A stretch of 58,390 nucleotides of DNA from a virus. The stretch's first letter is position 1. Every line of letters begins with the position of its first letter. The translations under genes and the position numbers were made by a program. Below are positions 5,535-33,395 of the stretch, piece by piece. Location: positions 1 through 58,390 of the IMG/VR virus record IMGVR_UViG_3300049259_000203; one strand, written 5' to 3'. The notes beneath the pieces were generated by a model that did no database searches, was not told the origin of the DNA, and saw only the letters and a list, made by a program, of their open reading frames with translations.

Positions 5535-5807
5535 CTACTCGTCGGTGACCTGGACCTCCACCAGGTCGTACGCCTGCCGGGAGACGGTCTTGCCGTCGAT
5601 GTGCTGGTCGGCGCCGGACTCGACGATCGCCTCGTGGGTGAGGCTGATCGCGTCGCCGCCCTGCGTGGTCTCGACGCTGGCGACGCGCCGCCACTCGGCC
5701 TTCGTGAGCGCGGCCGGGGTGGAGGCGAGCTCGCCGAGCCGGACGATGTCGCCCTGCTCCAGGTCGGCGATGCGGGCGAGCTTGATGTGAACGTACTTGC
5801 GGGCCAT
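5535..5807 (-). CDS. hypothetical protein, 90 aa, single-gene transcription unit
   Basis: This compact 90-residue protein (MARKYVHIKLARIADLEQGD) has several predicted beta strands and an acidic end. No family is recognised. It is notable for its setting. It has a complete member of the phage promoter family upstream (5850-5878), the consensus start-associated leader AGGAGGACCCGC before the ATG at 5805-5807, and its own terminator. That suggests a product made on its own, probably early. Confidence 0.8.
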   Translation of the reverse strand: MARKYVHIKLARIADLEQGDIVRLGELASTPAALTKAEWRRVASVETTQGGDAISLTHEAIVESGADQHIDGKTVSRQAYDLVEVQVTDE

Positions 5808-5849
5808 GCGGGTCCTCCTGTGAGAGAGACGGATGGTGCCTGTACATAC

Positions 5850-5878
5850 ATTATGTACGTTCGACGGGTCGGCGTACA
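5850..5878 (-). promoter_or_regulatory. phage-family promoter (TGTACG-17-CATAAT)
   Basis: Read on the minus strand: -35 TGTACG (5873-5878), 17-bp spacer, -10 CATAAT (5850-5855), then GTATGTACAG around the expected start point and a GAAACC element just upstream of the -35. The start region also forms a perfect inverted repeat GTACATA-CAT-TATGTAC (5842-5858 on the plus strand), a likely operator. It drives 5535-5807. Confidence 0.8.
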
Positions 5879-9399: not shown

Positions 9400-9917
9400 G
9401 CGGGTCCTCCTGTGGTGGTCGGGTTGTCGTTCTCGGCGAACGCGACGTCGTAGCCGAGCGCGTGGCCGAGCATCACGAACGCCTCGCGGGCGTCCGGCAG
9501 CCCGAGCAGCGCAGCCTCGGCCTTGAGCCGGTCGCACTCCTCCTCCAGCGCGTCCTCGTCCGGGCCGATCAGCTCGACATCGTGCGAGGCGCGAATCGTC
9601 TTGTCGGCGTCACCAGGGCACGTCGCCTCGCCGGCGGCGTTGACGTAGTCGCCGCCGACGACACGCTGCTCCGGGGTGAACAGGTCCGCGCCGCAGCGGC
9701 GGCAGCGGCGGTGCGGCTCGTGCTCGCACGCCTCGTTCAGCGGGCCGTCGTCGTAGCCGTACAGCGAGTGCCCGTCCACCGTGGGACCGTCAACGACCCA
9801 GCCGTCGGAACGCAGCACCAGGTACACGCCGACGCGTTCCTCGATGCCCGGGTGGCGGTGCACCGCGTCGCGGATGAACTCCATGTCCGGCGTCGTGCGG
9901 CCGGTCGGCTCGGTCAC
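9396..9917 (-). CDS. hypothetical protein with zinc knuckle, 173 aa
   Basis: The protein contains CEHEPHRRCRRCGADLF (about residues 62-78), a treble-clef-like cluster, then a C-terminal helical half with EEECDRLKAEAALLGL and LGHALGYDVAF. The start is GTG 9915-9917, four-base overlap (GTGA) with the upstream stop. No family is recognised; the cluster would fit an RNA/DNA-binding adaptor. Confidence 0.75.
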   Translation of the reverse strand: MTEPTGRTTPDMEFIRDAVHRHPGIEERVGVYLVLRSDGWVVDGPTVDGHSLYGYDDGPLNEACEHEPHRRCRRCGADLFTPEQRVVGGDYVNAAGEATCPGDADKTIRASHDVELIGPDEDALEEECDRLKAEAALLGLPDAREAFVMLGHALGYDVAFAENDNPTTTGGPA

Positions 9918-10684
9918 GACGCGACCCGGGTCGCGATGCGCACCGCGTCGTACTCGTCGGCGGCGTACACGGTCTCGCAGAAGACCGGGTTGCCGTTCGT
10001 CCACGTCATCTCGTGGTGCCCGGGCAGGACCGCGCGGGCCAACGACGGCTCGCCCGAGTCGACGTCGGCGTCGCCGAGCACCGTGAACGGGTGCAGCTCC
10101 GTCCAGCACCAGCCGAAGCCGACCAGCCACAGCGGACGGCCGATCTCGTCGAACCGCGGCTCCACCCGCTCCGTCTCCCCGTCGTCGGTGCGGTGCAGGA
10201 CCAGGACGTCGCCCTCCCATGTCAGCAGGTCCACCGAGCCCTCGGCGCCGGTGGCGACGTCGCGGCGGTGCTCGCGGGCGAGCAGGCCGATGAGGACGTT
10301 CACGCCGCGACGGTCCAGCCACGGGCACTCCCAGCCGTTCCACCGCTCCCCGTCGGTGAACGCGAGCAGCGGCAGCGTGCGCCCGGTCGAGTCCAGCCAG
10401 TCGCCGGTCACGGCGATCGACGTGAAGCCCGGCGGCTCGTCGACCACGACCTCACCCGCCTGCGGGCTGGTCGAGACGACCTCCCACGCCAGGCCGGTCA
10501 GGTCCGCGACCAAGCGGTCGCCGGACGACACGTCCGCGAGCTCGTGGTCGGTGAACGTCAGGATGAACGGGCTGTCGTCGCCGGCGCGCACGATGCGCGG
10601 CCCGACGACGCGGTAGTCGCGGCCGGTCGCGGTGTTGCGCACCAGCGACCCGCCGGGCAGCTCCTGGAGGAGATCGACCGTCAT
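9914..10684 (-). CDS. hypothetical protein, 256 aa, beta-rich
   Basis: This soluble, beta-rich protein has several W/G-containing strands (LAWEVVSTS, RWNGWECPWLDRRG, LWLVGFGWCWTELHPF) and a GVNVLIGLLAREHR helix. No catalytic motif is visible. The ATG at 10682-10684 overlaps the upstream TGA by four bases. It belongs to the operon beginning at 10914. Confidence 0.75.
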   Translation of the reverse strand: MTVDLLQELPGGSLVRNTATGRDYRVVGPRIVRAGDDSPFILTFTDHELADVSSGDRLVADLTGLAWEVVSTSPQAGEVVVDEPPGFTSIAVTGDWLDSTGRTLPLLAFTDGERWNGWECPWLDRRGVNVLIGLLAREHRRDVATGAEGSVDLLTWEGDVLVLHRTDDGETERVEPRFDEIGRPLWLVGFGWCWTELHPFTVLGDADVDSGEPSLARAVLPGHHEMTWTNGNPVFCETVYAADEYDAVRIATRVAS

Positions 10685-10914
10685 CGGGTCGCCTCCACCG
10701 CGTACCCGCTGCCGTCGACGCGGACCGCGTTCTCCAGCGCCTCGGCGATGCGGTCGATGTCGTCGGCCTGGCCGGCGAGGTACGGCTCGTCGGGCGCGGT
10801 GACGTCGCGGAGGCGACGGGCCGCACCGCGAAGGCGCTGCGACAGCGTGGGGAGCCCGTTCGGCGGCTCGGTGTCGATCGACACCAGCTCGACGGGCAGA
10901 GTGACGTGGCTCAT
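10681..10914 (-). CDS. small hypothetical protein, 77 aa, operon leader gene
   Basis: This short helical protein (MSHVTLPVELVSIDTEPPNG, then LSQRLRGAARRLRD) has no known family. It is the first gene downstream of a complete family promoter (10951-10979) and carries the start-associated leader GGAGGACCCGC before the ATG at 10912-10914. It opens the long coupled run that continues leftwards through 5909. Confidence 0.75.
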   Translation of the reverse strand: MSHVTLPVELVSIDTEPPNGLPTLSQRLRGAARRLRDVTAPDEPYLAGQADDIDRIAEALENAVRVDGSGYAVEATR

Positions 10915-10950
10915 GCGGGTCCTCCAGTGAGAGGTTGTGTCTGTACATAC

Positions 10951-10979
10951 ATTATGAACATCGGGCCGGTCGGCGTACA
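10951..10979 (-). promoter_or_regulatory. phage-family promoter (TGTACG-17-CATAAT)
   Basis: Minus strand: -35 TGTACG (10974-10979), 17-bp spacer, -10 CATAAT (10951-10956), then GTATGTACAGAC at the likely start. An AAACC element sits just upstream of the -35. The plus-strand start region GTACATA-CAT-TATGAAC is a near-perfect inverted repeat. It drives the operon from 10914. Confidence 0.8.
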
Positions 10980-11007: not shown

Positions 11008-11244
11008 TCAGCGCACGGCGGTCAGCCGGACGGCCTGCTGCGCGCGCTGCGAGAGCCGGTACGTCGTCTCCGCGCCACCGCCCTCCGCGATCAGCAGCCC
11101 GCGCTTCACCAGCGCGAACACCGCGACGTCGGCGCCGTGCCCTTCGCCGAGCACCGCGACGACGTCGGCAAGCCGCAGCGGGCCGCCCTCCAGGGTGCGA
11201 AGGACGGCCCGCTGCTTCGGGGTGAGCCTCACCGGCCGAGCCAC
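11008..11244 (-). CDS. winged-helix DNA-binding protein, 78 aa
   Basis: It has the layout of a MarR-like minimal winged helix: LTPKQRAVLRTL helix 1, LADVVAVL helix 2, VAVFALVKRGLLI recognition helix, then a GGGAETTYRLS wing. It resembles two other small winged-helix proteins of this phage (20964-21206 and 57268-57447), so it may be a paralogous regulator. The ATG is at 11242-11244, 10 bases downstream of the previous stop. Confidence 0.8.
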   Translation of the reverse strand: MARPVRLTPKQRAVLRTLEGGPLRLADVVAVLGEGHGADVAVFALVKRGLLIAEGGGAETTYRLSQRAQQAVRLTAVR

Positions 11245-14601: not shown

Positions 14602-15119
14602 GCGGGTCCTCCTGTGGGAGTCGGGTCGGGCGCGAACGCGCCCTCGTGCAACGTGCGCGCGGCCCAGCCGGCGCAGTAGTCGGCGGGGGTGCCGTCGGCA
14701 CGGTACGGCACGCCGTCCCGGGTCGGCGGCGTGTACTCCAGGCCGCTCGCGAGTATGCCAACGCCGGCCGGGTGCAGGTAGCCGACCGGGCGGCGGATGC
14801 CCTGGTGGCACCAGAACGGCGTGCCGTCGCGCACGAGCTGGTCGAGCAGGTCCTGATCTCCGGCCGCCTGCGGGTGGCCGCTGCGCTCCGGGCTGCCCGG
14901 CCGGTACGCGCAGTCGACGCACATCGCGTCCGCGACCGTCGGCGAGAGCCCGTCGACGATCGGGCGCTGCTCCTCGGCGAACACCGGCTCCCAGCAGGTG
15001 CAGCGCCCGGCGCCGCCCATCGCCATGCCGGCGCAGCAGTACACGTCGCCGAGGTCGGGCAGCCGCGAGTCGCTCACCGCGACGTGCACCGGTCGTTCTC
15101 CGTTCGGGCCGCGTCGCAC
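14598..15119 (-). CDS. cysteine-rich hypothetical protein, 173 aa
   Basis: This protein has many cysteines in pairs: YCCAGMAMGG...CTCWEPVF (about 27-45), MCVDCAYRPG (about 64-73), FWCHQGIRRP (about 103-112) and DYCAGWA. That is enough for one or two zinc or Fe-S sites. The start is GTG 15117-15119, two bases after the preceding stop. The family is not known to me. Confidence 0.72.
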   Translation of the reverse strand: MRRGPNGERPVHVAVSDSRLPDLGDVYCCAGMAMGGAGRCTCWEPVFAEEQRPIVDGLSPTVADAMCVDCAYRPGSPERSGHPQAAGDQDLLDQLVRDGTPFWCHQGIRRPVGYLHPAGVGILASGLEYTPPTRDGVPYRADGTPADYCAGWAARTLHEGAFAPDPTPTGGPA

Positions 15120-15517: not shown

Positions 15518-15666
15518 CACGACGTCACCCGGGCGGTGAGGTCCGCCGCGCGCTGCCGCAGCATCGTCGCGGCGTCGCGCTGGCCGGTGCGGTCGGCGAG
15601 GGCCGCCGCGGCGCGGAGCTCGTCGGCTTCGCGTGTGAGCTGCTCGCGGGTCGGTCGGTTGCTCAT
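15517..15666 (-). CDS. small helical protein, 49 aa
   Basis: The 49-residue protein is almost entirely helical (REQLTREADELRAAAALAD) with heptad-like hydrophobics, so it is likely a coiled-coil peptide. I chose the ATG at 15664-15666 because the start-associated leader CACAGGAGGACCCG lies just upstream. It is the first gene of its operon, under the promoter at 15740-15768. A second copy of AGGAGGACCCG lies farther up the leader (15702-15712). Confidence 0.72.
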   Translation of the reverse strand: MSNRPTREQLTREADELRAAAALADRTGQRDAATMLRQRAADLTARVTS

Positions 15667-15739
15667 CTTCGGGTCCTCCTGTGAGAGGGGCTCGGACCCC
15701 ACGGGTCCTCCTCGTTAGTCGTGCAAGGTCTGTACATAC

Positions 15740-15768
15740 ATTATGAACGACGGGGCGGGCGGCGTACA
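15740..15768 (-). promoter_or_regulatory. phage-family promoter (TGTACG-17-CATAAT)
   Basis: Minus strand: -35 TGTACG (15763-15768), 17-bp spacer, -10 CATAAT (15740-15745), then GTATGTACAGAC. GGAAACC precedes the -35. The leader of about 75 bases carries two copies of the AGGAGGACCCG element. It drives 15666 leftwards. Confidence 0.8.
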
Positions 15769-15789: not shown

Positions 15790-16161
15790 TCAGTATTCGA
15801 CGGTCCGGGTCGGCGGGCCAAGGCCGCCCCCCTCGGCGTCGACGGCGAACGCAGCCTCGTCGCCGAGCTCGATCGCCTCGTACGCGAACGCCCGGTCGGC
15901 GTCGCCGACGAAGCAGCACAGCGGGTACCACTCGACCAGCACCGCGGCCGCCATGCGCATGTCCGCCTTCGTGCCGCGCGCCGGGTCGTGCCCGACGGCC
16001 CGCGCGAACCGCGCGTCGAGCAGCGTCCGCTCGAACAGCCGCGCGGTGCCCGCCCCGACACCGCGCGGGTACCGCGCCCGGAACGGCTCCAGATGCCGCG
16101 GGCACCACACCTTGAGCACGTCGAGCTGGACGTTCGGGCGGTCAGGCGGCGAGCCGCTCAT
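15790..16161 (-). CDS. hypothetical protein, 123 aa
   Basis: The helical protein has VWCPRHLEPFRARYPRG near the N-terminus and VEWYPLCCFVGDADRAF towards the C-terminus, and ends TRTVEY. It might bind metal through the C/H residues. Its ATG (16159-16161) lies inside the end of the Dam methylase frame, which overlaps it by 20 bases because of the G15 tract just upstream. It is the last gene before promoter 15740-15768. Confidence 0.75.
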   Translation of the reverse strand: MSGSPPDRPNVQLDVLKVWCPRHLEPFRARYPRGVGAGTARLFERTLLDARFARAVGHDPARGTKADMRMAAAVLVEWYPLCCFVGDADRAFAYEAIELGDEAAFAVDAEGGGLGPPTRTVEY

Positions 16162-17029
16162 CTACTCGCCCCCCCCCCCCCCCGGCTTCGAGTCGGAGCT
16201 GCGTCATCAGCGGACGGTTGCACCAGAGGACCTCCGTCGCGCGGATCGTCGGCTGCCCGCGGCGGTTCCCGGCCGACGCGGTGACCTGCCGCTCGGAGAC
16301 GGACCACCCTTCGTACAGCTCGTCGTAGAGCGGCGAGTGGTACCCGGACAGCATCACCGTCGCTGGCGTCGCAGCGAGAGCCGCGGCGAGCTCGCGGTGC
16401 TGCTCCTCGGTGCTCATGTCGTGCAGGTAGTCGTTCGCGCGGAACCGCCGGCTCGACTGCGTACGCCGTCGCGTCGACGCCAGATACGGCGGGTCGATGT
16501 ACATGAGCACGTCGGAGCGCCGCCCGTACAGCTCGATCGCCTCGATCGCCGGCCGGTTGTCGATGATGACCCCGCGCAGACGCTCGGCGGCCTCGTGCAT
16601 CCGGTCGACCATCCGCTGCACCGCCCACGCGTCCGACCCGCCGTTGCGGATACTCGCCGACCAGGAGCTCCGGTGGCTGTCGGACGTCGCGCCGGAGAAC
16701 GCCTGCACGATGCGGACCCACGTCCGACGCGCCCGCTCGACGTCGTCCTCGACGTCGCGGTCGTCGCACGCGGCGAACTCGTCGCGGGCGTACGGCGTGA
16801 GCCGGCAGACGCGGACCAGGTCGTCCGGCCGGTCGCGGAGCACCCGCAGGAACGTCACCAGGTGCCCGTCGATGTCGTTCACGACCTCATGCGCCACCGG
16901 CCGCTTCGCGAACAGCACCGACGCCGCGCCGCAGAACGGCTCGACGTACGCGTCGTGCGGCGGCATCAGCGACACGATCCACGGCGCGATACGCGTCTTC
17001 CCGCCGTAGTAGTTGATCGGCGGCTTCAT
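16142..17029 (-). CDS. dam: DNA adenine methyltransferase, Dam (D12 class)
   Basis: The 295-residue N6-adenine methylase uses S-adenosylmethionine. Order alpha is clear: motif X YYGGKTR (about 7-13), motif I EPFCGAASV (about 30-38) and motif IV DPPY (about 178-181), followed by target-recognition segments and the terminal VLWCNRP strand. Phage Dams protect viral DNA from host restriction. The C-terminus is unusual: a run of 15 G (16169-16183) encodes Gly5 and puts the last eight codons over the start of the next gene. In either other phase the frame would stop at the next ATG. The start is ATG 17027-17029. Confidence 0.93.
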   Translation of the reverse strand: MKPPINYYGGKTRIAPWIVSLMPPHDAYVEPFCGAASVLFAKRPVAHEVVNDIDGHLVTFLRVLRDRPDDLVRVCRLTPYARDEFAACDDRDVEDDVERARRTWVRIVQAFSGATSDSHRSSWSASIRNGGSDAWAVQRMVDRMHEAAERLRGVIIDNRPAIEAIELYGRRSDVLMYIDPPYLASTRRRTQSSRRFRANDYLHDMSTEEQHRELAAALAATPATVMLSGYHSPLYDELYEGWSVSERQVTASAGNRRGQPTIRATEVLWCNRPLMTQLRLEAGGGGGRVDERLAA

Positions 17030-17268: not shown

Positions 17269-17456
17269 GACGCCGACCCTCCCCACATCTTGATGCACCG
17301 CCGGCATGAGGCGCTGCCGTCGACCTCGCGGATGCGTCGCGTCCTCGGGTGGCCGGCGCCGCACAGCGGCCAGAGCCCGCCGCCGAGCAGCGACCGCGCG
17401 TAGTGCCGCGCGCCACCGGTGCGCACGGTGACGACGATGCGCGGCAACCTCAGCAC
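17265..17456 (-). CDS. small zinc-binding hypothetical protein, 63 aa
   Basis: The basic 63-residue protein has LCGAGHPRTRR near residues 31-41 and SCRRCIKMW near 50-58, consistent with a single zinc site (C, H, C, C). The GTG start at 17454-17456 overlaps the end of the Gp37/Gp68 gene by 7 bases. Function unknown. Confidence 0.68.
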   Translation of the reverse strand: MLRLPRIVVTVRTGGARHYARSLLGGGLWPLCGAGHPRTRRIREVDGSASCRRCIKMWGGSAS

Positions 17457-18463
17457 GGACGTCCGGCCGGGCGCATCGCGTCGAGGCGCGCGCCCGCGAT
17501 CGCGAGGTCCGGCAGCTCATCCCAGGTGCGGCCGTCGAGCTCGCGGCCGGCGACCTTCTTACCGACCCGGATGACCGGCGTCACGTTCGCGCCCTCGGGC
17601 AGGTGGTCGTACGTGCAGTGCACGTTCCCGGACCGGTCGATCAGGTACGCCGGCGGCTTCCCGCCCTGACCGTGCAGCGTGTTGAACTCCTCCCCGGGCA
17701 GCGGCGGCCGCCACTCGCCCCACTGCTTGAACAGGAAGGGGACGCCAGCGGCGCCAGCATCGTTGCGCAGGTCCCGGAACCATCCCGGGTGCGGCGGGCG
17801 CGCGTGCGGCCCCGACTCGCCGCCCGCGATGATCCAGCCGATGCCGTCTCGCCGCGGGACGAAGACGGCGCAGTCGGGCGCGTGCTGGCCGGCACCCTCG
17901 AACGTAGGCACGAGGCACCGGCACTCGCCGAACAGGAACGGAGCGAGGTCGACGCCGCCGATCAGCGGCTCGCAGCTCAAGAACCGCAGCCGCGCCGGCA
18001 CCGCGAGGAGATCGGCGATGCGGCCAATCACCCGTTCGCTCTCGACGGTCGTCCCGAGCCACACGTTCACCGGCCACGCGTCGCCCCACGGCGCCATGTC
18101 GGCGACGTTCTCGGGTCGCTTCGTGAGGAGCATCCAGATCAGCCACGGCGTGTCGGCGATGAGCTGCCAGAGCCGCTCGCGGAGCGGGTCCAGCGCCGGG
18201 TGCAGCTCGAAGACGTCGCACATGCTCCCGCTGAACACGCGCGCGATCGTCCCGGCCTGCTCGGCGTCAGCGTTCCACTTGAGCGGCTTCCGCCAGTTGG
18301 CGTCGCTCAACTCGCGGCGCGGCCCGTTCTTGCCCCACACGTCGTGGCCGTACCGCTTCGCCTGCGCCTCGGCGTAGCAGCCGTCGCAGCCTGCCGAGAC
18401 GCGCGCGCAGCCCCACCACGGGTTGAAGCTGTAGTCCGCCCACTCGATCTTGGTCAGTCCCAC
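17450..18463 (-). CDS. phage Gp37/Gp68-family protein (DUF5131)
   Basis: The 337-residue protein carries the family signature IEWADYSFNPWWGC (residues about 6-19), the three cysteines of CARVSAGCDGCYAEA (CX6CX2C, about 19-33) and further blocks SGSMCDVFE, WLIWMLLTKRPEN, WLGTTVESE, LRFLSCEPL and WIIAGGESG. The cysteine triad and TIM-barrel-like order resemble radical-SAM proteins related to SplB, so Fe-S chemistry on nucleic acid is plausible but unproven. The start is GTG 18461-18463 with AGGAGG 6 bases upstream. It overlaps the homing endonuclease end by 10 bases. Confidence 0.88.
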   Translation of the reverse strand: MGLTKIEWADYSFNPWWGCARVSAGCDGCYAEAQAKRYGHDVWGKNGPRRELSDANWRKPLKWNADAEQAGTIARVFSGSMCDVFELHPALDPLRERLWQLIADTPWLIWMLLTKRPENVADMAPWGDAWPVNVWLGTTVESERVIGRIADLLAVPARLRFLSCEPLIGGVDLAPFLFGECRCLVPTFEGAGQHAPDCAVFVPRRDGIGWIIAGGESGPHARPPHPGWFRDLRNDAGAAGVPFLFKQWGEWRPPLPGEEFNTLHGQGGKPPAYLIDRSGNVHCTYDHLPEGANVTPVIRVGKKVAGRELDGRTWDELPDLAIAGARLDAMRPAGRPC

Positions 18464-20033: not shown

Positions 20034-20971
20034 CGGCCCGCCAGGTACTCGGCGGCCATGACCTCCAGCACCTTCCACGTTGGCGTCTCCGGGTCGACGT
20101 CGCCGCAGTCGCGGGCCCGGTCGATCGCCTGCGCGACGACGGCGGCCGCGTCGGCGGGGATCGCCCGGGTGCCGAACAGCGTCTCCAGCGGCGCGGAGCC
20201 CTTGTGCCTGGGCAGGCCGGTGTGCTCGTCGAACCAGCCGGCGCGCAGGTCCTCCAGGTGCCGCTCGCCGAGCGCGATGAGCAGCATCACGGCGGTCGCG
20301 ACGTTCGCGACGTCGTACGCGGTGTGCGTCGTCTCGATGAGGTCCAGCATCGGGTCGTACTCGCGCATCGCGACGAGCCACCGCGAGTCGGCGGGGACGC
20401 TGCGCAGCATCGTCGTGAACGCCTCGCGGGCCCGCTCGACCTCGGCAGGCAGGAACACGAGGCTGATCGTCGTGAAGTCGAGGTTGGCCTCGCCGAGCGC
20501 CCCGACCTCGACCTGCGACAGCAGCTCCAGCACCTTGTCGTCGAGCCCGGAGTATTGCCGCAGGTCGATCTCGGCGATCTCGTCGTAGAGCTGCTTGAGG
20601 ACGCCCGGGTCGTCCTCGCCCTCGATCGCGTTGTGCGAGAGCTGGATCGCGATGCGCCGGTCCTTCGGGATCGGGTCGAGCGCCACCATGACGTAGATCA
20701 CGTCGAGGCCCGCGTCGATCGACGCCCTGATGCGGTGGTTGCCGGAGAGGACCTCCAGCGCGCCGGCGTGCTCGCCTTCGTCGATCGTCCAGCAGAACGG
20801 CGTGCTCGTCAGGCACCCGTCCGCCTTGATGTTCGCGACGAGCTGCCGGTACCGCTCGTTGCGCATGTACCGGGCGTTGAGCTCCAACAGCCGCACGTCG
20901 CGCGGGTTGACCTGCCGGACCTCGGTGCGCAGCTTCCCGAACACGCCGACCGGGTCGAAGACGTCACCCAC
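20030..20971 (-). CDS. ParB/sulfiredoxin-fold protein, 313 aa
   Basis: The N-terminal 110 residues follow the ParB N-domain pattern: REVRQVNPRDVRLLELNAR-like opening, RYRQLVANIKADGCLTSTPF (near 40-60), and LEVLSGNHRIRASIDAG (near 72-88), with GNHR in place of the GERR of true ParB. A conserved QLSHNAIEGEDD segment follows and the C-terminal 180 residues are helical with no known domain. Such GNHR proteins include ATP/CTP-using enzymes and nucleases found beside DNA-modification genes. Its role here is unknown; it lies in one operon with the methyltransferase-like/GNAT fusion. Confidence 0.85.
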   Translation of the reverse strand: MGDVFDPVGVFGKLRTEVRQVNPRDVRLLELNARYMRNERYRQLVANIKADGCLTSTPFCWTIDEGEHAGALEVLSGNHRIRASIDAGLDVIYVMVALDPIPKDRRIAIQLSHNAIEGEDDPGVLKQLYDEIAEIDLRQYSGLDDKVLELLSQVEVGALGEANLDFTTISLVFLPAEVERAREAFTTMLRSVPADSRWLVAMREYDPMLDLIETTHTAYDVANVATAVMLLIALGERHLEDLRAGWFDEHTGLPRHKGSAPLETLFGTRAIPADAAAVVAQAIDRARDCGDVDPETPTWKVLEVMAAEYLAGR

Positions 20972-21206
20972 GGGCCCGCTCCCGCCCCTGGTCGGTGAGC
21001 GCGTACCCGACGAGCGTCGACGTGAGCGGCTCGGTGCGCACCAGCCCCTCGTGGATGAGGCGCATCAGCCGGCCGCGCACCGCCCGCCCGTTCGCGTCGC
21101 CGAGCTCGTGACGGACCGCGGTGATCGTCGCCTTCCCGTCGCCGGCGGCCTGCGCCGCGGCGTCGACCGCCCGCAGCACCGCCCGGTCGGTGTCCTCGAT
21201 GGTCAC
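20964..21206 (-). CDS. winged-helix protein, 80 aa
   Basis: This winged helix has a TDRAVLRAVDAAAQAAG helix, ATITAVRHELG, then VRGRLMRLIHEGLV as recognition helix and a YALTDQGRERA end. The layout matches 11008-11244 and 57268-57447. The start is GTG 21204-21206, overlapping the previous stop as GTGA. It is probably a DNA-binding regulator or adaptor. Confidence 0.77.
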   Translation of the reverse strand: MTIEDTDRAVLRAVDAAAQAAGDGKATITAVRHELGDANGRAVRGRLMRLIHEGLVRTEPLTSTLVGYALTDQGRERARG

Positions 21207-23857: not shown

Positions 23858-24271
23858 CTAGCGGCCGAGCGGTAGTGCGTCCCGTTCGGCGTCGCGGCCG
23901 AGCTCGGGCACCGGCTCGCCGGTGTTCTGCGTCCACCACTCGGCGAAGATGCGGCGGTGGCACCACAGGTCCGGCTTGCCGAGGTCCTCGAAGCAGAGCA
24001 GGACGAGGGTCTCCTCGCCGGCCTGGTCGGCGACCGCCTGGCACTCGGCCGCGATGCGGGCGACGCCGGCGGCGTCGAGCCGGGCGACGTAGAGCTTGGT
24101 GTAGGCCGGCCGCTCCAGCCGGAGCCACGCCCGGTCGGGGTAGAGGGTCGGGAGCGCGTGGACGAGCGGGTACTTGGTGCCGTACCGGGGTGCTCCGATG
24201 CTCGTCCTGACGGGCACGCCCATCGGCTCGCGGAACTGCGAGTACGAGCAGGTGCGTAGGTCGAAAGCCAC
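23858..24271 (-). CDS. DUF488-family protein
   Basis: The 137-residue protein has the family core: an N-terminal YSQFREPMGVPVRTSIGAPR, LYPDRAWLRLERPAYTK-like middle, and the diagnostic TLVLLCFEDLGKPDLWCHRR (about 89-108), with Cys and CHR as in DUF488 proteins. Function of the family is not established. The start is GTG 24269-24271 behind the leader CACAGGAGGACCGACCA. It has a weak family promoter upstream (24317-24345) and its own terminator, so it is a single-gene unit. Confidence 0.82.
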   Translation of the reverse strand: MAFDLRTCSYSQFREPMGVPVRTSIGAPRYGTKYPLVHALPTLYPDRAWLRLERPAYTKLYVARLDAAGVARIAAECQAVADQAGEETLVLLCFEDLGKPDLWCHRRIFAEWWTQNTGEPVPELGRDAERDALPLGR

Positions 24272-24316
24272 TGGTCGGTCCTCCTGTGAGAGGTTGGTGT
24301 GCTGATCCCAATGTAC

Positions 24317-24345
24317 ATGATGTAGGCACAGAGAGTGCGGGTTTG
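24317..24345 (-). promoter_or_regulatory. candidate promoter, divergent member of the family
   Basis: Minus strand: -10 CATCAT (24317-24322) followed at once by GTACATT; at 17 bp upstream is CAAACC (24340-24345) and not TGTAC. The leader ends in CCTCTCACAGGAGGACCG like the other family members. The position fits 24271, but the -35 is poor. Confidence 0.45.
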
Positions 24346-24346
24346 G

Positions 24347-25264
24347 TCAGGTGGTCGGCGTGTCGCCGCGGGCGTCCTCCAACCTCGCCGTCGCGAGCGA
24401 CAGCGCCTTCGCGCGGCGCATCGTGCGCCGCGCCCTGAGCATCTGCTGGTACACGGCCTCGAACCGCTCGGCGTGCAGCCCGAGCTCCCCGGACAGCGCG
24501 CTGGCGAGGTCCTCCGGCCGCAGGATCGCGATGTCGGCGAGGAGCGCGCTCACGCCGTACAGCCGCTCGATCGCGTGCCGCGTCTCCTTCCGGCGCCGCC
24601 GCTGCTGCTCGACCTGCTCGGGTGTGCGGTCGTCCGGCCAGAACGCCGTCTGCTGCTCGCCGAGCTTGAGCGCCCGCGCGAAGTCGACGGCGTCGGTCTC
24701 GGTGGGGAAGTCGCCGCGGACGTACCGCGCGACGGCGTGCCGCTGGCTCGCCGGCGAGAGCTGCGCGATGTAGTACGCCGGCGTGATCTTCAACGCGCCG
24801 GCGTCGACGAGCGGCCAGAAGTCCTCGCGCAGCGTGAGCAGCCCCATCCGCCAGTGCACGTACTCGGTGCTCTTGCCGAACCGCTTCGCGATCGTTGCGA
24901 CGTCGCGGCCGGCGGCGTGCAGGAAGCCGTACGCCGCGACCTCCTCCATGATCGTCATGTCGGCGCGGTTGACGTTCTCGGCGACGCTCGCCTCGAACGC
25001 CTCGACGTCGTCGGTGAGCCCGTCGAACACGATCGACGGGATGTCGGTCACGTCGGCGAGCCGGGCAGCGCGCCAGCGGCGCTCGCCGGCGACGATCAGG
25101 TAGCGGCCCTCGTCGGCCGGGCGGACAAGGATCGGCTCGAGGACGCCGAGCTCGGCGATCAACGCGGCCAGCTCCGCGAGCTTCGCCTCGTCGAAGTGCT
25201 TGCGCGGCTGCCGCGGGTCCCGGTCGATCTGGTCGAGCGGGAGGACGTCGTACCGGGGGCGCAT
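24347..25264 (-). CDS. parB: ParB/Spo0J-type partition protein
   Basis: The 305-residue protein has ParB order. The N-domain opens with LPLDQIDRDPRQPRKHFDE (about 8-26). The CTP/arginine box VAGERRWRAARLA spans about 58-70 and ENVNRADMTIMEEVAAY about 96-112. A helix-turn-helix DVATIAKRFGKSTEYVHWRM spans about 121-140, and a helical C-terminal region with EQVEQQRRRRKETR follows. True ParB proteins load as CTP-dependent clamps at parS and work with ParA. No ParA is encoded here, so the phage may use the host one or use ParB for regulation. The ATG at 25262-25264 overlaps the previous stop. Confidence 0.9.
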   Translation of the reverse strand: MRPRYDVLPLDQIDRDPRQPRKHFDEAKLAELAALIAELGVLEPILVRPADEGRYLIVAGERRWRAARLADVTDIPSIVFDGLTDDVEAFEASVAENVNRADMTIMEEVAAYGFLHAAGRDVATIAKRFGKSTEYVHWRMGLLTLREDFWPLVDAGALKITPAYYIAQLSPASQRHAVARYVRGDFPTETDAVDFARALKLGEQQTAFWPDDRTPEQVEQQRRRRKETRHAIERLYGVSALLADIAILRPEDLASALSGELGLHAERFEAVYQQMLRARRTMRRAKALSLATARLEDARGDTPTT

Positions 25265-25866
25265 CACGACACGGCCTCCGCGGTGGCGCACCGCTCGCAC
25301 TCCCGGCCGTCGCGCACCGCGTCGACGTCGGTCAGGACGCGCCGGCAGCCTGCCCGCACGCAGCAGAGCTGGAGGGCCACCCAGCGGCCGATGTCCACGA
25401 GCAGGTCCCGTACGACGTCGTCGGCGGCGTCCTGGACGCTGGCCGGCGCGGTGTCGACCGGTGCCTGCCACGTTCCGGTCTCCAGCACGACCCGCAGCGC
25501 GTGGTCACCGGTGAGCGTCCCGACGATGCCGAGCGCCTGGGTGGCGAGCGTCGCGACGATGTCCGCGAAGTCGTCCGCCGACCGGGCGGTCATGTCGAGG
25601 GACTCGACCAGGTCGCTGATCGCGGTGATCGACACCAGCTCGGCGGGGTCGTCACCGTCGAGGACGCCGGCGAGGTAGTCCCCCGCGCGCGAGCGCCAGG
25701 CGGTGTCGGCACCGCGCCATGCCGGCCAGACGTACTGGATGAGCGTCGCGCGCGTCACGTCGACGTCGCCCTTGTCGGCGGCCGGCGCCCACAGCGCCTC
25801 GGGCACGTCGAGCGCGGCGGCGGTCCGGCGCGTGAGCAGCACCGTCGCGTCTTCCGGCCCGGTCAC
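25264..25866 (-). CDS. hypothetical protein, 200 aa, with C-terminal zinc ribbon
   Basis: A helical body (about 1-150, with ADDFADIVATLATQALGIVG and AADDVVRDLLVDIGRWVALQ) ends in LCCVRAGCRRVLTDVD...ECERCATAEA, a four-cysteine ribbon. No family is recognised. The GTG at 25864-25866 overlaps upstream; the stop overlaps parB as a shared base, so the two are co-translated and may interact. Confidence 0.72.
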   Translation of the reverse strand: MTGPEDATVLLTRRTAAALDVPEALWAPAADKGDVDVTRATLIQYVWPAWRGADTAWRSRAGDYLAGVLDGDDPAELVSITAISDLVESLDMTARSADDFADIVATLATQALGIVGTLTGDHALRVVLETGTWQAPVDTAPASVQDAADDVVRDLLVDIGRWVALQLCCVRAGCRRVLTDVDAVRDGRECERCATAEAVS

Positions 25867-26063
25867 CGATCGCTCCGGTAGCCCTCGGTGTCGATGCAGT
25901 CGTCGTCGTGGTCCTTCGGCAGGACGCACGGGCTACTCGGGTCGCCGTCGCGGTGCACCCGTCGCGGGCACGCGCCGGGCGGCAGGTCCTCCGGCTCGAT
26001 GTCTCGCACGTCGCCGGGGTACGCGCTGAACCACGCCCGGAGCGCGGTCGCGGAGCCGTCCAT
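25863..26063 (-). CDS. small hypothetical protein, 66 aa, operon leader gene
   Basis: The 66-residue protein has an N-terminal helix (ATALRAWFSAYPGDV) and a C/H/D-rich C-terminus (ACPRRVHRD, SPCVLPKDHDDDCIDTEGY) that resembles a small metal-binding module seen in many actinophages. The ATG at 26061-26063 has the AGGAGGACCCGAC leader. It opens the parB operon under the promoter at 26102-26130. Confidence 0.75.
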   Translation of the reverse strand: MDGSATALRAWFSAYPGDVRDIEPEDLPPGACPRRVHRDGDPSSPCVLPKDHDDDCIDTEGYRSDR

Positions 26064-26101
26064 GTCGGGTCCTCCTGTGAGAGGTAGATGTGTCTGTACA
26101 C

Positions 26102-26130
26102 ATCTTAGTGACAGTCGCTCCGGTTGTACA
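26102..26130 (-). promoter_or_regulatory. phage-family promoter (TGTACA-17-TAAGAT)
   Basis: Minus strand: -35 TGTACA (26125-26130), 17-bp spacer, -10 TAAGAT (26102-26107), then GTGTACAGACACA at the likely start. It drives 26063 and, by coupling, the parB gene. Confidence 0.8.
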
Positions 26131-26147: not shown

Positions 26148-26447
26148 TCAGGCGCCGAGCGGCAGCGGCTGGGGCGCCGGCGCCGGGCGCTTCACCGGCC
26201 GGTGCCGCTGGCCGAGCCGGCCGCCCGGGGACACGAGCTCACCGCGGCAGGAGGCGCACTCGGCGGTGAAGAACCGGACCCGCCCGGTGTCGTCGGTCGC
26301 CCCGCCGCGCGGGCCCGGCTGGACGAACAGCTCCGCGCCGCAGCCGCACCGGCCGACAGCCAGACGCTCCCGGTGGCAGGCACGCCAGCGATCGACGTCG
26401 ATCGCCCCGTCGGCGATGACGTCCGCGTAGAGCCCGCTCGCGATCAT
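26148..26447 (-). CDS. zinc-ribbon hypothetical protein, 99 aa, possibly leaderless
   Basis: CGCGAELFV near residues 34-42 and CASCRGELV near 65-73 form a four-cysteine zinc ribbon. The tail is basic and Pro-rich. The ATG at 26445-26447 is chosen; an ATG three codons upstream (26454-26456) falls inside the candidate -10 at 26455-26460, and transcription from that promoter would begin at about 26447-26449. The message may therefore be leaderless. Function unknown. Confidence 0.7.
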   Translation of the reverse strand: MIASGLYADVIADGAIDVDRWRACHRERLAVGRCGCGAELFVQPGPRGGATDDTGRVRFFTAECASCRGELVSPGGRLGQRHRPVKRPAPAPQPLPLGA

Positions 26448-26454
26448 GCTGTAC

Positions 26455-26483
26455 ATGATGCCTGTACATTCCCGCGTCTGTCA
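26455..26483 (-). promoter_or_regulatory. candidate promoter for a leaderless transcript
   Basis: Minus strand: TGACAG (26478-26483; GTGACA one base up), 17-bp spacer, -10 CATCAT (26455-26460), then GTACAG. The next ATG (26445-26447) would be at or within two bases of the start point. Confidence 0.5.
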
Positions 26484-27200
26484 CGCACCTAACGGCACGT
26501 TCTCCACAGGGTTGTCAACAGGCAGTGCACAAGAGCACCTTCGGACAGGGTCCTTGGTCACAGGGTCCTCGACCATCCGCGTGTCCGGGTGGCACGACCC
26601 GCACCAGGGCGCACGCCGCGGCTTCGCGTCGTCGAGGACCGCGCGGGTGTTCGTCCGGCAACCGCGACAGGACGCGTGCGGCTTGTCCCGATGCCTCGGG
26701 CACGCCCCTGGCGCGCGAGCGCCGGGGGCTACGGGGGAACTCCTTTGGTCCGTCTTGGGGTCCGTCTTTGTAGAGAGGGCCTGACTGTCCGACGACCGGT
26801 CAGCCGACGCCCGGTCCACCGACGACTGGAAACCCGTCGTCGGTTCCTCGGCCTCGTCCGCCCGGACCCGTTCGAGCACCGCGACCGCCTCCGGCGGCTC
26901 GACCTCGGCCGGCTCGTCGGTCACGTAGCAGACCGTCGTCCAGTGGCCGCGGGTGTTCTGGAGCCGGAAGCGGTGCAGGTACCGCAGCTCCTCCAGCTCG
27001 CGCAGCGCCCGCCGGACCGCGTCGCGACCCTCCCGCTTCTCACCGTCGGCGAGCGAGTCGCTGTCGGTCTCCCACCCGTCCGGCCGCGACACCAGGTACG
27101 TCAGCACGCCGAGCGCCCGGTAGCTCAGGCGCTCATCGGTGATCGTCGCGTTCGGCATGATCGTGAACTCGCGGCGGTGCTGGTGCCGGACGATCCTCAC
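26481..27200 (-). CDS. winged-helix protein, candidate replication initiator
   Basis: The 239-residue protein has an N-terminal winged helix (NATITDERLSYRALGVLTYL, VSRPDGWETDSDSLADGEKR, VRRALRELEELRYLHRFR) typical of phage replication-organiser and plasmid RepA-like N-domains. A Ser/Asp/Pro linker follows. The C-terminus carries cysteine pairs (CPRHRDK, CRGCRTN, CGSCHPD, CSC) suggesting two zinc sites. It sits beside a 260-bp non-coding gap. The initiator role is inference from the domain and position. The start is GTG 27198-27200. Confidence 0.72.
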   Translation of the reverse strand: MRIVRHQHRREFTIMPNATITDERLSYRALGVLTYLVSRPDGWETDSDSLADGEKREGRDAVRRALRELEELRYLHRFRLQNTRGHWTTVCYVTDEPAEVEPPEAVAVLERVRADEAEEPTTGFQSSVDRASADRSSDSQALSTKTDPKTDQRSSPVAPGARAPGACPRHRDKPHASCRGCRTNTRAVLDDAKPRRAPWCGSCHPDTRMVEDPVTKDPVRRCSCALPVDNPVENVPLGA

Positions 27201-27460: not shown

Positions 27461-28987
27461 TCAGCCGACCGCCTGCTGCCCTCCCTCGTCGCTGTCCGAC
27501 TCCACCGGCGCGGTGGCGGCAGCCGCAGCGGCGTCCTCCAAGGCGTCGGCCTCCTGCGCCTCCCGGACTGCGTCCGCCTCTGCCCCCTCGTCGCCTGTCG
27601 GCTGCGCCCGTACGTCGGCGGCGACGCGCGCAGCAACCTCCTCCGACGCGGCGTCGACCCCGACCTCCGCGACCCGGAGCGGGCTCGCCGCAACAGCCGC
27701 CTCCTCGGCCAGCTTCATCGCCAGCCGACGCTTGAGCAGCTCCGGCGTCCCGTTCGTCGGCAGCTCGCAGCGCCGCAGCTCGGCGACGAGCATCGGCCTG
27801 GGCATCTTCGACACCGCGGCGACGATCGTCGGCGGAAGCCCGTGCGACCACCCCTCCGAGCCGCCTGATTCGGCCGCAGGCGCCTCAGCGGCCCCAGGAG
27901 CCGCGCCGCCCTCGTCCGTCGCGGCAGCGGCCGGGCTGGACGCCTCCCCGGCGGCCTCCTGCGCCGGCGACTCCCCGCTGGCCGCCGCACTCGCGGCCGC
28001 CGTCGCGGCGGCGTAGTCGGTGAGCGCGACCTGCACGACCGCCTCGACGGTGTCGAACGGGACCTCGACCGGGTCGCCGAGCCCGTGCTTCACCCACGCC
28101 GCCTTGCCGAGCTCGCGCGCCTCCTGCTGCCCGATACCGAGCCGCGCCTCCAGCATCGACACGACCTCGGCGGCGGCCTGCCGGCCGGACATGCCGTTGT
28201 CCGGCTTCACTCCCTGCGCCTGCGAGAACGCGCGGCCGGCGCCGAGCCGCTCGAACACCAGCCGGTCGAGCAGGTCGAAGTCCAGCGGCTCGAGCTTCTG
28301 CGGCTTGCCGGTCGAGTCGTCGCCGCCGTGCAGCGACCTGGTGCGGATCAGCTCGGCGGTGCGCGGGTCGCGGCGTAGCCGCAGCCACACCCGCGCGTCG
28401 AACGTGAGGTTCTTCTGCCCCTCGACCTTCCACACCCGCTGGTTCGCGACGATCTGGCCGTCCTCGAACTTCACGACCTCCTTGCCGCGGGCCGTGACCA
28501 CGACGATGCCGTTGTACGTCGACAGCGCCGTGATGAGCCAGTCCCACCGCTCGTTGGCGTCGTTCCAGTAGTTGCTCGGCACCGAGATCGCCGCGTCCGG
28601 GTCGCTCGCGAGGACCCGCTTCGCCTGCACGCTGTTCATCGCGCGCCGCGTCGTCCAGTCCTTGAGCGCGTCCCACAGCAGGTGCACGTTGTCGACGCCG
28701 ATGACGTTCGGCCGGCCGTCGACCTGCGGCTCGCGCATCGCGAGCTCCATCTGCTCGCGGAAGTCCGACCACATGCCGTTGTGGTCGATGATCTCGTACG
28801 GGCCGATCGGGCCGTACTCGTCGAGCACGCCGGCGTCGCCGAAGCCCGCGACGAACATGCGGCCGATGCGCGGCGACCGCGACAGCTCCAGCATCTGCCG
28901 GGTCTTGCCGGCGCCCTCGTCGCCCTCCACCAGGATGAACGGGTACGCCACCTGCCCGGTCGGCTTCCGGGTCCGCAGGCCGCTCAC
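27461..28987 (-). CDS. RecA/Sak4-like ATPase with C-terminal SAP-like domain
   Basis: The 508-residue protein has a P-loop VEGDEGAGKTRQ (about residues 20-31), a Walker B strand NVIGVDNVHLLW (about 92-103) and IVVVTARGKEVV (about 160). This is the compact RecA-like core of phage Sak4-type recombinases that anneal ssDNA. A long Ala/Glu-rich linker (about 340-390) leads to MPRPMLVAELRRCELPTNGT (about 396-415), a SAP-type DNA-binding helix pair, and an acidic tail. The GTG at 28985-28987 overlaps the upstream gene. It is the last gene before a strong terminator. Confidence 0.82.
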   Translation of the reverse strand: MSGLRTRKPTGQVAYPFILVEGDEGAGKTRQMLELSRSPRIGRMFVAGFGDAGVLDEYGPIGPYEIIDHNGMWSDFREQMELAMREPQVDGRPNVIGVDNVHLLWDALKDWTTRRAMNSVQAKRVLASDPDAAISVPSNYWNDANERWDWLITALSTYNGIVVVTARGKEVVKFEDGQIVANQRVWKVEGQKNLTFDARVWLRLRRDPRTAELIRTRSLHGGDDSTGKPQKLEPLDFDLLDRLVFERLGAGRAFSQAQGVKPDNGMSGRQAAAEVVSMLEARLGIGQQEARELGKAAWVKHGLGDPVEVPFDTVEAVVQVALTDYAAATAAASAAASGESPAQEAAGEASSPAAAATDEGGAAPGAAEAPAAESGGSEGWSHGLPPTIVAAVSKMPRPMLVAELRRCELPTNGTPELLKRRLAMKLAEEAAVAASPLRVAEVGVDAASEEVAARVAADVRAQPTGDEGAEADAVREAQEADALEDAAAAAATAPVESDSDEGGQQAVG

Positions 28988-29844
28988 CGACGACGCCCCG
29001 GCTTGAACACGTCGCGCTCGACCTTGATGTCGGCGCCGGTCGGGACCTGCTGCTCGTCCAGCGCGCGGTTCAGGATGCCCGCGAGCGCGTCCTCCCCGTT
29101 CGCCATCAGCGCGCCCTTCCACGCGTCGACCGCCGTCTTGCGCCACTCCACCCGGCCCAGCTCGAGGACCCGCTCGAAGCCGCGCCGCACGCCGACGTCG
29201 ACGCCGGCGAGGTAGTCGGAGCGGCGCATCGCGGCGAGCTCGGACCCGACGATCACGGCGTCCGGCTGCTCGACGTCGGGCAGGCCCTTGTACTCGTCGG
29301 GGTGCTCGATCGCGCGCGCGACCTCGATGCGCGCGGCGACGGACGCGAGCCGGTCCGGGTGCCAGGTCTTCTCCTTCTTCGTCGGCTGCGTCGCGATGAT
29401 CTCCGTGTCGCCGTCCGGCACGACCAGGCGCGGGATGATCCCGTTCTCGCCGGCCTTCGGCTCGCCGACGGTCCGCGCCTCCTCGGCGATCTCGGCGCGG
29501 CACCGCGCGGCGGCCGCTTTGAAGTCGTCGCCGATGCGGTCCAGCACGTCGCCGGCGTCCATCAGCACCCGGACCAGCGGCGCGACGTCGGTGTCGGCGA
29601 GGTCCTCGGTGCCGACCTCGCTCGTCCGCTGGTCGCGGACCTTCTGCGCGGCGGTGATGACGGCCAGCTCCAGCGCGCGGCCGATGCCGCGGGTCGCCTT
29701 GTCGAGTTCGTACACATCGACGGTGCCGGAGATCGCCGCCTCCAGCAGCGTCACGGGCACGGTGACGGGCGGCGGCATCTCGGCCGGTACGGGAGGCTCG
29801 GGCGGTGCCGCGAGGGCGACTGCCGAGCCGGTGTCGTCGGTCAT
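28984..29844 (-). CDS. hypothetical protein, 286 aa, partner of the RecA-like gene
   Basis: This helical protein has a Pro-rich N-terminus (about 10-30) and a central coiled region (ALELAVITAAQKVRDQRTSE, VLMDAGDVLDRIGDDFKAAA). A more structured C-terminal half follows with VVPDGDTEIIATQPTKKEK and SELAAMRRSDYLAGVDVGVR. I do not recognise it. It starts with the consensus leader AGGAGGACCCGC (ATG 29842-29844) and is four-base-coupled to the Sak4-like gene, so a recombination or replication partner is likely. Confidence 0.75.
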   Translation of the reverse strand: MTDDTGSAVALAAPPEPPVPAEMPPPVTVPVTLLEAAISGTVDVYELDKATRGIGRALELAVITAAQKVRDQRTSEVGTEDLADTDVAPLVRVLMDAGDVLDRIGDDFKAAAARCRAEIAEEARTVGEPKAGENGIIPRLVVPDGDTEIIATQPTKKEKTWHPDRLASVAARIEVARAIEHPDEYKGLPDVEQPDAVIVGSELAAMRRSDYLAGVDVGVRRGFERVLELGRVEWRKTAVDAWKGALMANGEDALAGILNRALDEQQVPTGADIKVERDVFKPGRRR

Positions 29845-29868
29845 GCGGGTCCTCCTGTGAAGGGATCG

Positions 29869-29887: not shown

Positions 29888-29901
29888 GTGTCTGTGCAGA
29901 C

Positions 29902-29930
29902 ATTGTGTACAGACCTAGAGCACGGCCTTG
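29902..29930 (-). promoter_or_regulatory. candidate promoter, divergent member of the family
   Basis: Minus strand: -10 CACAAT (29902-29907) followed by GTCTGCACAGACAC, clearly alignable to CATAAT-GTATGTACAGAC of the strong members. The -35 position (29925-29930) reads CAAGGC, which is poor and lies in the end of the methyltransferase gene. Confidence 0.45.
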
Positions 29931-31660: not shown

Positions 31661-31869
31661 TGTTCGATCCGTCCTTCTCTCCAGAGTGGCGAGCCGGACA
31701 GGAGAGCGTCCGGCTCGGGAAGCACATTGCGAACCCGCCAGCGGTACACCGTGGCGGACTTCACGCCGAGCAGGTCGGCGACCTCGACGAGGCCGAGGAT
31801 GCCCGTCAGGGGCTCCAGCGGCGGGTCCGTGGCGTCGTGGTCGACGGCGACAGCGGCGCTACTCGTCAT
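31540..31869 (-). CDS. AlpA/excisionase-like helix-turn-helix protein
   Basis: Residues 24-85 form a MerR/AlpA-type HTH: GILGLVEVADLLGVKSATVY, RWRVRNVLPEPDALLSGSP and LWREGRIEQWARATGRP, the standard excisionase and AlpA arrangement. The 25 residues after that are Ser/Thr/Arg-rich and lie wholly inside the methyltransferase gene, so the tail may be forced by the overlap. It may regulate the methyltransferase translated from the same message. The ATG is at 31867-31869. Confidence 0.78.
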   Translation of the reverse strand: MTSSAAVAVDHDATDPPLEPLTGILGLVEVADLLGVKSATVYRWRVRNVLPEPDALLSGSPLWREGRIEQWARATGRPLAPGRRDESSSTTATTPPRTGSAARGAAALA

Positions 31870-32044
31870 GCGAACTGACCTCCTCGTGATGCAGCAGCAG
31901 CACCAGTACGACCGCTGCGGTGAACGCGCCCACCAAGCCCCACCAGGCGACGACCAGACGGCCGTGCCGGAGGCCGAGAACGACGACGAGCAGCGCGAGC
32001 ACGGTCGTCCAGCCGAGGCAGACGATCGTCCTGCGGTGCGTCAT
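31859..32044 (-). CDS. small membrane protein, 61 aa, two TM segments
   Basis: The protein begins MTHRRTIVCLGWTTVLALLV and has two hydrophobic helices (about 7-24 and 30-51) joined by RHGR, with an acidic tail EEVSSHDE. The ATG at 32042-32044 has GGGAGGG close upstream and a family-like promoter element at 32076-32081. Function unknown. Confidence 0.68.
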   Translation of the reverse strand: MTHRRTIVCLGWTTVLALLVVVLGLRHGRLVVAWWGLVGAFTAAVVLVLLLHHEEVSSHDE

Positions 32045-32075
32045 CGAGGCCCTCCCGTGGGCGGTCACTGTACAT

Positions 32076-32081
32076 GTTCTA
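32076..32081 (-). promoter_or_regulatory. candidate -10 element of the promoter family
   Basis: On the minus strand TGTCAC-TAGAAC-ATGTACAGTGAC aligns with the -10/start region of the TAAGAT-type members (CACTAAGAT...TGTACAG). No TGTAC is present 17 bp upstream, so this may be only an operator-like half. Confidence 0.4.
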
Positions 32082-32088
32082 GTGACAC

Positions 32089-32664
32089 CTATCCGGGAGG
32101 CGCGGGCAGGAGCTCGGCGGCGCGCACGGGGGTCCAGAAGCAGTCCCGCTCGACGACCCACTGGAGCGTCCCGGAGCCGACGTGAACGACGGCCTGCGGC
32201 GCGACGCGATGCGCGCCCACGCCCGGCTTCCCGTACGGATGCCCGTCCTCCGGGTGCTCGAAGTAGCCGTGCTGGACCGCGCCGAACTCGTGCGTGTGGT
32301 GAAGCGTCTGGCCTTCGTAGGGGTGCTCGTGGGCGACCGGCTCCGACAGCGGCTTGGCCGGCGTCGCGGTGAACGTGCTGCGCGGACGGATCGCCTCCAG
32401 CTCGCCGAGCCAGAAGTAGCCCCACTCGACGTCGCCGTTGTGCTTGACGAGCCCGAACGCCTCGCCGGTCGTCCAGTCGGCCTCGACGACGTACCAGTCG
32501 AACCCGCCGGCGAAGTAGTGCGCGACGACCAGCTTGTCCGCGAGGGGCACAGCCTCCGTCGCGTACAGCGCCGGCGTCTTCCGCCGTACCACCTGGGGCG
32601 GCAGGAACGCGTGCCCGCGGGTCCGGCGCTGCGTCTCGTTGAACACCGTGTCGGTGGCGGTCAC
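32089..32664 (-). CDS. DUF2958-family protein
   Basis: The 191-residue protein shows the family core: FLPPQVVRRKTPALYATE (about 20-37), VAHYFAGGFDWYVVEAD (about 46-62), GEAFGLVKHNGDVEWGYFWL (about 67-86) and GELEAIR. DUF2958 proteins are widespread on plasmids and phages with no known activity. The extra C-terminal half (about 95-191) is His-rich (HEHPYEGQTLHHTHEFG) and may bind metal. The start is ATG 32662-32664, overlapping the previous stop. Confidence 0.84.
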   Translation of the reverse strand: MTATDTVFNETQRRTRGHAFLPPQVVRRKTPALYATEAVPLADKLVVAHYFAGGFDWYVVEADWTTGEAFGLVKHNGDVEWGYFWLGELEAIRPRSTFTATPAKPLSEPVAHEHPYEGQTLHHTHEFGAVQHGYFEHPEDGHPYGKPGVGAHRVAPQAVVHVGSGTLQWVVERDCFWTPVRAAELLPAPPG

Positions 32665-33308: not shown

Positions 33309-33345
33309 GGGCCCTCCTGTGAGGTCGGGTTGGTTGCCTGTACAT

Positions 33346-33374: not shown

Positions 33375-33395
33375 TGGTTTCTGCACAGAAGCCAA

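Follow-up and report, generated by a model that had tools for sequence, protein, structure and literature searches.

Early genes of this phage, which is of the actinobacterial type, are preceded by a probable palindromic switch. A 19-bp dyad, TGTNCATA-N3-TATGTACA, which lies across the -10 and the point where transcription is predicted to start, stands in ten copies before nine early genes and most likely allows one regulatory protein to turn these genes on or off jointly. In our reading, to which we give a probability of about two in three, the elements are early promoters for the SigA-type polymerase of the host, each with a built-in operator at which a dimeric regulator, most probably a repressor, would bind. 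Directly visible in the sequence are the dyad, with its copy number, spacing and placement, and a repeated ribosome-binding site (RBS) downstream of it, as well as the lack of detectable sigma factor or WhiB genes. The window, that is, the whole stretch analysed, is the entire IMG/VR record IMGVR_UViG_3300049259_000203 of 58,390 bases, with a GC content of 72.7%. Both of its ends carry the same 127 bp (1-127 = 58264-58390), so the genome most likely measures about 58.26 kb and is complete in this record, having been assembled as a circle (or with terminal redundancy). In our gene models, where gene starts were assigned heuristically, the minus strand holds essentially all genes, and reading along it the structural genes (about 58-36 kb) are followed by the lysis genes for endolysin and holin, the non-structural genes (33.3-4.4 kb) and the terminases. 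Relatives are distant: the capsid protein has about 37% identity to those of Streptomyces phages, the portal is closest to that of phage ZL12 (40% identity), one early gene is about 49% identical to Northamptonvirus, and the DNA similarity to Microbacterium phages, based on the terminase, is confined to a local stretch. The genome also carries a DUF5131 gene (17450-18463), two DNA methyltransferase genes (16142-17029 and 29915-31660) and a cold-shock protein gene (55153-55371).

A preliminary description of this DNA had proposed a promoter family preceding early operons and made of TGTACR as -35, an invariant 17-bp spacer, CATAAT or TAAGAT as -10 and a second TGTAC at the start point. On rechecking the coordinates we found all five listed sites on the minus strand, three of them TGTACG-N17-CATAAT (5850-5878, 10951-10979 and 15740-15768) and two TGTACA-N17-TAAGAT (26102-26130 and 33346-33374). 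The pattern TGTACR-N17-(CATAAT|TAAGAT) thus occurs five times on the minus strand, not at all on the plus strand and not once in 60 order-2 Markov genomes. The second TGTAC was also borne out, as TGTACAG lies 1 or 3 bp past the -10 form at all five sites, and AAACC, said to lie just above the -35 in most, does so at four of the five, the exception being 26130. TGTACA itself is found 22 times in the window against 1.8 to 4 copies expected, and 12 of the 22 lie in non-coding DNA, which amounts to 6.8% of the genome. Scans with consensus sigma-70 promoters miss this family. Position, statistics and the ribosome-binding sites downstream all give good support to a phage-specific promoter family ahead of early genes.

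The internal geometry proposed for the family stood only in part. The 17-bp spacer holds if CATAAT is taken as the -10, but not when the promoters are aligned on the start-site TGTACA, as a TAANNT hexamer (TAATGT or TAAGAT) then lies at equal offset in both promoter types and the spacer becomes 19 or 17 bp; in the CATAAT promoters the choice of -10 is ambiguous, and hence the spacer too (17 or 19). Common to both types, relative to the first TGTACA base, are GT at -12, TAA at -7 and T at -2. The two TGTAC copies, supposed to lie at a fixed distance, are 32 or 30 bp apart depending on the promoter type. Four weaker relatives (24317, 26455, 29902 and 32076) are real, and all belong to the dyad set, but they have no TGTAC -35 in common. 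The invariant spacer was dropped as the defining feature, since the dyad unifies more sites; the five sites exist, but the invariant unit is the 19-bp dyad rather than TGTACR, 17 bp and a -10.

The dyad emerged from a spacing test of TGTACA against a TGTNCA-like partner, in which -13 was enriched together with -32, and the partner at -13 forms the dyad TGTACATA-N3-TATGTACA. With at least 12 of 16 arm positions matching around a 3-bp centre there are ten copies against 0.05 expected in order-3 Markov genomes, and other centre lengths from 0 to 11 give only 0-3 dyads each. All ten dyads ranked first in leave-one-out PWM scans (at least 18.6 bits), and in the full PWM scan the members reach at least 25 bits against 11.1 bits for the next non-member position; the model was built from these same ten sites, and leave-one-out scoring and the spacing control lessen this circularity and do not abolish it. 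Most dyads score high on the opposite strand too, and the motif is therefore symmetric. The related pattern YGT-N3-TA-N3-Y-N-TGTACA has seven matches on the minus strand, none on the plus strand and none in simulations. Nine of the ten dyads each mark a separate promoter or gene start, and the tenth is the upstream operator of the 33.3-kb promoter (Table 1). All are found between 5.8 and 33.4 kb, where they lie just 5' of an early gene or on its start, and the genome-wide scan found none in the structural-gene part. Their -10 hexamers TAAGAT, TAATGT, TAGAAC and TACATC look to be of the ordinary SigA-like TANNNY type. From the standard -10-to-start spacing, +1 would fall within the right-arm TGTACA or beside it at most dyad promoters. 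The dyad ends 24-64 nt ahead of the start codon, except for that at 26450-26468, which overlaps the predicted start codon; its want of a clear -10 counts against the promoter-operator reading.

Table 1. Dyads, promoter-operators, RBS repeats and neighbouring features in the window.
Feature	Position	Strand	Sequence elements and context
Promoter-operator 1	5841-5878	minus	TGTACG; -10 CATAAT or TAATGT; dyad CGTACATAATGTATGTACA at 5841-5859
SAS-like RBS CACAGGAGGACCCGC	5808-5822	minus	directly 5' of ATG of gene 5535-5807
Promoter-operator 2	10942-10979	minus	dyad TGTTCATAATGTATGTACA at 10942-10960
SAS-like RBS, 1 mismatch	10915-10929	minus	ahead of gene 10681-10914
Promoter-operator 3	15731-15768	minus	dyad CGTTCATAATGTATGTACA at 15731-15749
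SAS-like RBS, 1 mismatch	15669-15683	minus	ahead of in-frame ATG at 15666
RBS-like GAGGAGGACCCGTG		minus	ahead of upstream in-frame GTG at 15702
Dyad TGTGCCTACATCATGTACA	24312-24330	minus	-10 TACATC; 5' of gene 23858-24271; no TGTAC -35
ParB-like gene (ParB_N + HTH_ParB)	24347-25267	minus	dyads at 26113 and 24330 on either side
Promoter-operator 4	26095-26130	minus	TGTACA; -10 TAAGAT; dyad TGTCACTAAGATGTGTACA at 26095-26113
SAS-like RBS, 1 mismatch	26065-26079	minus	ahead of gene 25863-26063
Dyad TGTACAGGCATCATGTACA	26450-26468	minus	over predicted start of gene 26148-26456; no clear -10 inside
Rep-like gene	26481-27200	minus	just ahead of dyad 26450-26468
Dyad TGTACACAATGTCTGCACA	29893-29911	minus	5' of gene 28984-29844
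SAS-like RBS, exact	29845-29859	minus	ahead of ATG at 29844
Dyad TGTCACTAGAACATGTACA	32069-32087	minus	-10 TAGAAC; 5' of gene 31859-32044; no TGTAC -35
Promoter-operator 5, double	33339-33387	minus	two dyads 30 bp apart
Promoter-operator 5, start-site dyad TGTCACTAAGATATGTACA	33339-33357	minus	-10 TAAGAT
Promoter-operator 5, upstream dyad TGTGCAGAAACCATGTACA	33369-33387	minus	over -35
SAS-like RBS, 2 mismatches	33307-33321	minus	ahead of gene 32661-33308
Terminator-like hairpin	33398-33417		ahead of promoter-operator 5, lysis/early gene boundary
Isolated TGTACA	35538-35543	minus	about 40 bp 5' of endolysin gene 34663-35499; without dyad or obvious -10

The three CATAAT promoters share a conserved block from about -48 to +10 around TGTACA (about 58 bp, 70-87% identity), outside which identity falls to the background of about 30%. 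The sharp edges of this common block could be taken to mean that a single promoter cassette was recently duplicated and that its copies persist by descent and not by function. But the remaining dyads are far more diverged and have nevertheless kept their arms and the exact 3-bp centre, and all dyads lie at gene starts in a single orientation, which leaves this explanation the faintest of chances. A reading of the promoter elements as RNA elements was likewise unsupported, as there was no match in Rfam.

Promoter status, use of host SigA, repression over activation, and the dimer and its identity are what we infer from this arrangement. The operator dyad would cover about -18 to +1, with the -10 inside it and the right-arm TGTACA on the start point. 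A further TGTACR near the -35 is present at five promoters only, separated by 30 or 32 bp, or about three helical turns, from the copy at the start site downstream, which suggests a second operator on the same face of the helix; at the 33.3-kb promoter this upstream element is a full dyad in its own right. One dimeric regulator may bind the start-site dyad, at times cooperatively with the upstream copy, and shut out the polymerase. If one regulator acts on all dyads, the early genes that bear them would be switched jointly. The transcript would start about 24-64 nt ahead of the gene and carry the extended RBS CACAGGAGGACCCGC. The upstream TGTACR is the dispensable part, because dyads without it exist (24330 and 32087), and its reading as the -35 for a new sigma factor was given up in favour of part of a second, weaker operator.

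The preliminary description had left the choice between a dedicated phage activator or repressor and an alternative sigma factor. We favour a repressor operator because sigma and WhiB genes were not found, the -10s look SigA-like and a symmetric dyad sits on the -10 and the start; the site is repeated and so placed as to exclude polymerase from these putative promoters. A phage or phage-modified polymerase, or an alternative sigma factor, reading TGTACR-N17-CATAAT/TAAGAT would suit the -35/-10 layout of the five sites, which have a single spacer if CATAAT is the -10. We consider it very unlikely, since a six-frame search detected neither sigma region 2 (PF04542) nor region 4 (PF08281), although a highly diverged sigma could escape such a search, the -10s look SigA-like, the other dyads have no upstream box and the motif is symmetric. 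WhiB was also absent in a six-frame search of the genome. A phage activator, which would bind TGTACR and TGTACA and recruit the host polymerase to promoters without a consensus -35, would explain both the TGTACR at the position of the non-consensus -35 in five promoters and the conservation of the CATAAT promoters up to about -48. We hold it to be unlikely, as the element that is symmetric and best conserved covers the -10 and the start, an unusual position for an activator, and the upstream box is missing from two good dyad promoters.

Such repeats have a parallel in phiC31, a temperate actinophage with a known repressor, in which conserved inverted repeats are present in many copies at early promoters and are bound by this repressor; their sequence differs from that of our dyad. 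Among the larger early genes of the present phage we recognised neither an integrase nor a CI-like repressor, so a role in classical immunity is unsupported. The only HTH_3 match was sub-threshold and lay within the small terminase. Three small proteins of winged-helix-like type (11008-11232, 20964-21206 and 57268-57447), whose Pfam matches are sub-threshold, are candidate regulators. The ParB-like protein is a weak candidate as well. That it binds the dyads as a KorB-like global repressor, possibly also with a function in partition, has a rather slim chance in our estimate, and overlaps with the reading that we prefer. With its ParB_N and HTH_ParB domains it is a DNA-binding protein of the phage, its operon is headed by the dyad at 26113 and the dyad at 24330 follows its stop codon; besides, the genome has a Rep-like gene and its portal is nearest to that of ZL12, which we take to be a plasmid prophage. 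On the other hand, no ParA was recognised in the phage, and the dyad, of 19 bp with a 3-bp centre, differs in geometry from canonical parS. Phage homologues of the ParB-like protein are distant. If true, a partition-family protein would be the master repressor of early promoters, like plasmid KorB, and a phage-plasmid lifestyle would be implied.

A known operator of similar layout is that of yefM-yoeB. In Escherichia coli, YefM exerts repression at its pyy promoter through TGTACA palindromes that lie across the -10 and start site (PMC7730913), and, as here, the TGTACA cores cover the -10 and the start, where the polymerase is sterically excluded (PMC7730913, PMC4803016, PMC3303803). The Streptomyces yefM promoter has a similar, less perfect pair. 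A host YefM/Phd-type antitoxin might accordingly bind the paired TGTACA, so that a toxin-antitoxin regulator of the host would control the early promoters. However, YefM operators belong to a toxin-antitoxin locus and have a centre-to-centre distance of 12 bp, to which YefM cooperativity is sensitive, whereas there are ten phage sites here with 13 bp, the arms extend to TGTNCATA and an antitoxin gene is absent (a six-frame search for PhdYefM, PF02604, gave no match at E<=10). We therefore think this explanation highly improbable.

Most genes downstream of dyads carry the extended 15-bp RBS repeat CACAGGAGGACCCGC or a near copy of it. Five copies are exact and about seven have 1-2 mismatches; they lie at gene starts or close by, and the conservation goes beyond anti-SD pairing, as the flanks CAC and ACCCGC are kept around AGGAGG. 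Exact copies without a dyad promoter lie at 9400-9414, 14602-14616 and 47641-47655, ahead of genes starting at 9399, 14601 and 47640, one of which is in the structural region. At 15666-15702 a single gene has two in-frame start codons with an RBS-like repeat before each. A viral contig containing the RBS 21-mer was rejected as a relative, for it has the 21-mer once and TGTACA not at all.

The closest counterparts in layout are the SAS and ESAS of cluster K mycobacteriophages (TM4, Anaya and Adephagia). The SAS is a 13-bp sequence, GGGATAGGAGCCC, located 3-9 bp ahead of start codons in 11-19 copies (PMC3203893, PMC11373665). The ESAS is a SigA-like promoter with 17-18 bp spacing and an imperfect inverted repeat, for which its describers suggest repression by a bound regulator (PMC11373665); its 17-bp arms, 4-13 bp apart, reach from the TTGACA -35 to the start (PMC3203893, PMC11373665). 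As in cluster K, the present elements are multi-copy, have one orientation and mainly precede non-structural genes (PMC3203893, PMC11373665), with an over-conserved RBS repeat at the start codon, which stands alone at some genes, and a subset having a putative SigA-like promoter and inverted repeat upstream. Unlike the ESAS, the dyad has 8-bp arms and a 3-bp centre and covers the -10 and start only. The SAS sequence GGGATAGGAGCCC has no match within 2 mismatches in this genome, which has CACAGGAGGACCCGC instead, and the ESAS cores GCATACAG and CTGTATGC are not present in it; of ESAS-type hexamers there are SigA-like -10s, with a -35 that is non-consensus (TGTACR) or absent and a spacer of 17 or 19 depending on the choice of -10. 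Direct comparison with the Anaya elements gave the same result, namely equal layout with different sequences and dyad geometry. At about 51950 of the Anaya record the right arm of an ESAS, TACTGTATGTACATC, is close to TAATGTATGTACAGRC of the present genome, by chance or as a hint of related regulators.

Microbacterium phages offer two more comparisons. Cluster EF phages (AnnaSerena) have SAS/ESAS-like motifs with the consensus GGGAAAGGACCCC and a GTAGAG-centred block (PMC7302621), and share with our phage a repeat at the RBS position and a conserved upstream block, but no dyad is described there (PMC7302621). Cluster EG has 18-bp inverted repeats, GATCAACC-NN-GGTTGATC, 14-22 bp 5' of the start codons of right-end genes; these are likewise short dyads upstream of start codons, but differ in sequence and spacer and are not described as overlapping promoters (PMC7302621). 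Judged by its sequence, the present family would work like SAS/ESAS and is not a member by the defining sequences; its general kind appears to be that of the multi-copy operator-promoters of actinophages. Some mycobacterial phages are already known to have a promoter design of this sort, of which the present family is a new version in sequence; it is also the third sequence-unrelated case, after clusters K and EF, in which repeated operator-promoters are paired with an over-conserved RBS, which suggests that actinophages have arrived at such a design repeatedly. The elements would serve as promoters in high-GC hosts, and the 19-bp dyad could be used as a probe to fish out the regulator.

The exact promoter-type patterns were not found in other viral or bacterial contigs, save one cyanobacterial chance match, and searches for relatives by protein yielded either nothing or distant loci in which TGTACA is not enriched. 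The dyad family is a compact operator-promoter set in a phage without close sequenced relatives. The nearest cultured partial relatives, Taptic and Soos, were set aside, as they have only a few genes in common and their promoter repeats differ. Gordonia phage Soos has four copies of a promoter-like repeat, TTGCACACGGGTAC...TATAGACTG or close variants, with a near-consensus -35 (positions 2858, 5096 and 15029 of locus L013 and 27432 of locus L014), mostly followed by further GTAC boxes and an RBS; this repeat is another multi-copy promoter family. In Mycobacterium phage Taptic the palindrome GAAACCCCTTGCATTGCAAGGGGTTTC, with variants, precedes several genes and is followed by a TAGGTT-like -10 (positions 23601, 24214, 24940, 27936 and 28920 of locus L012), and is possibly an operator overlapping the -35.
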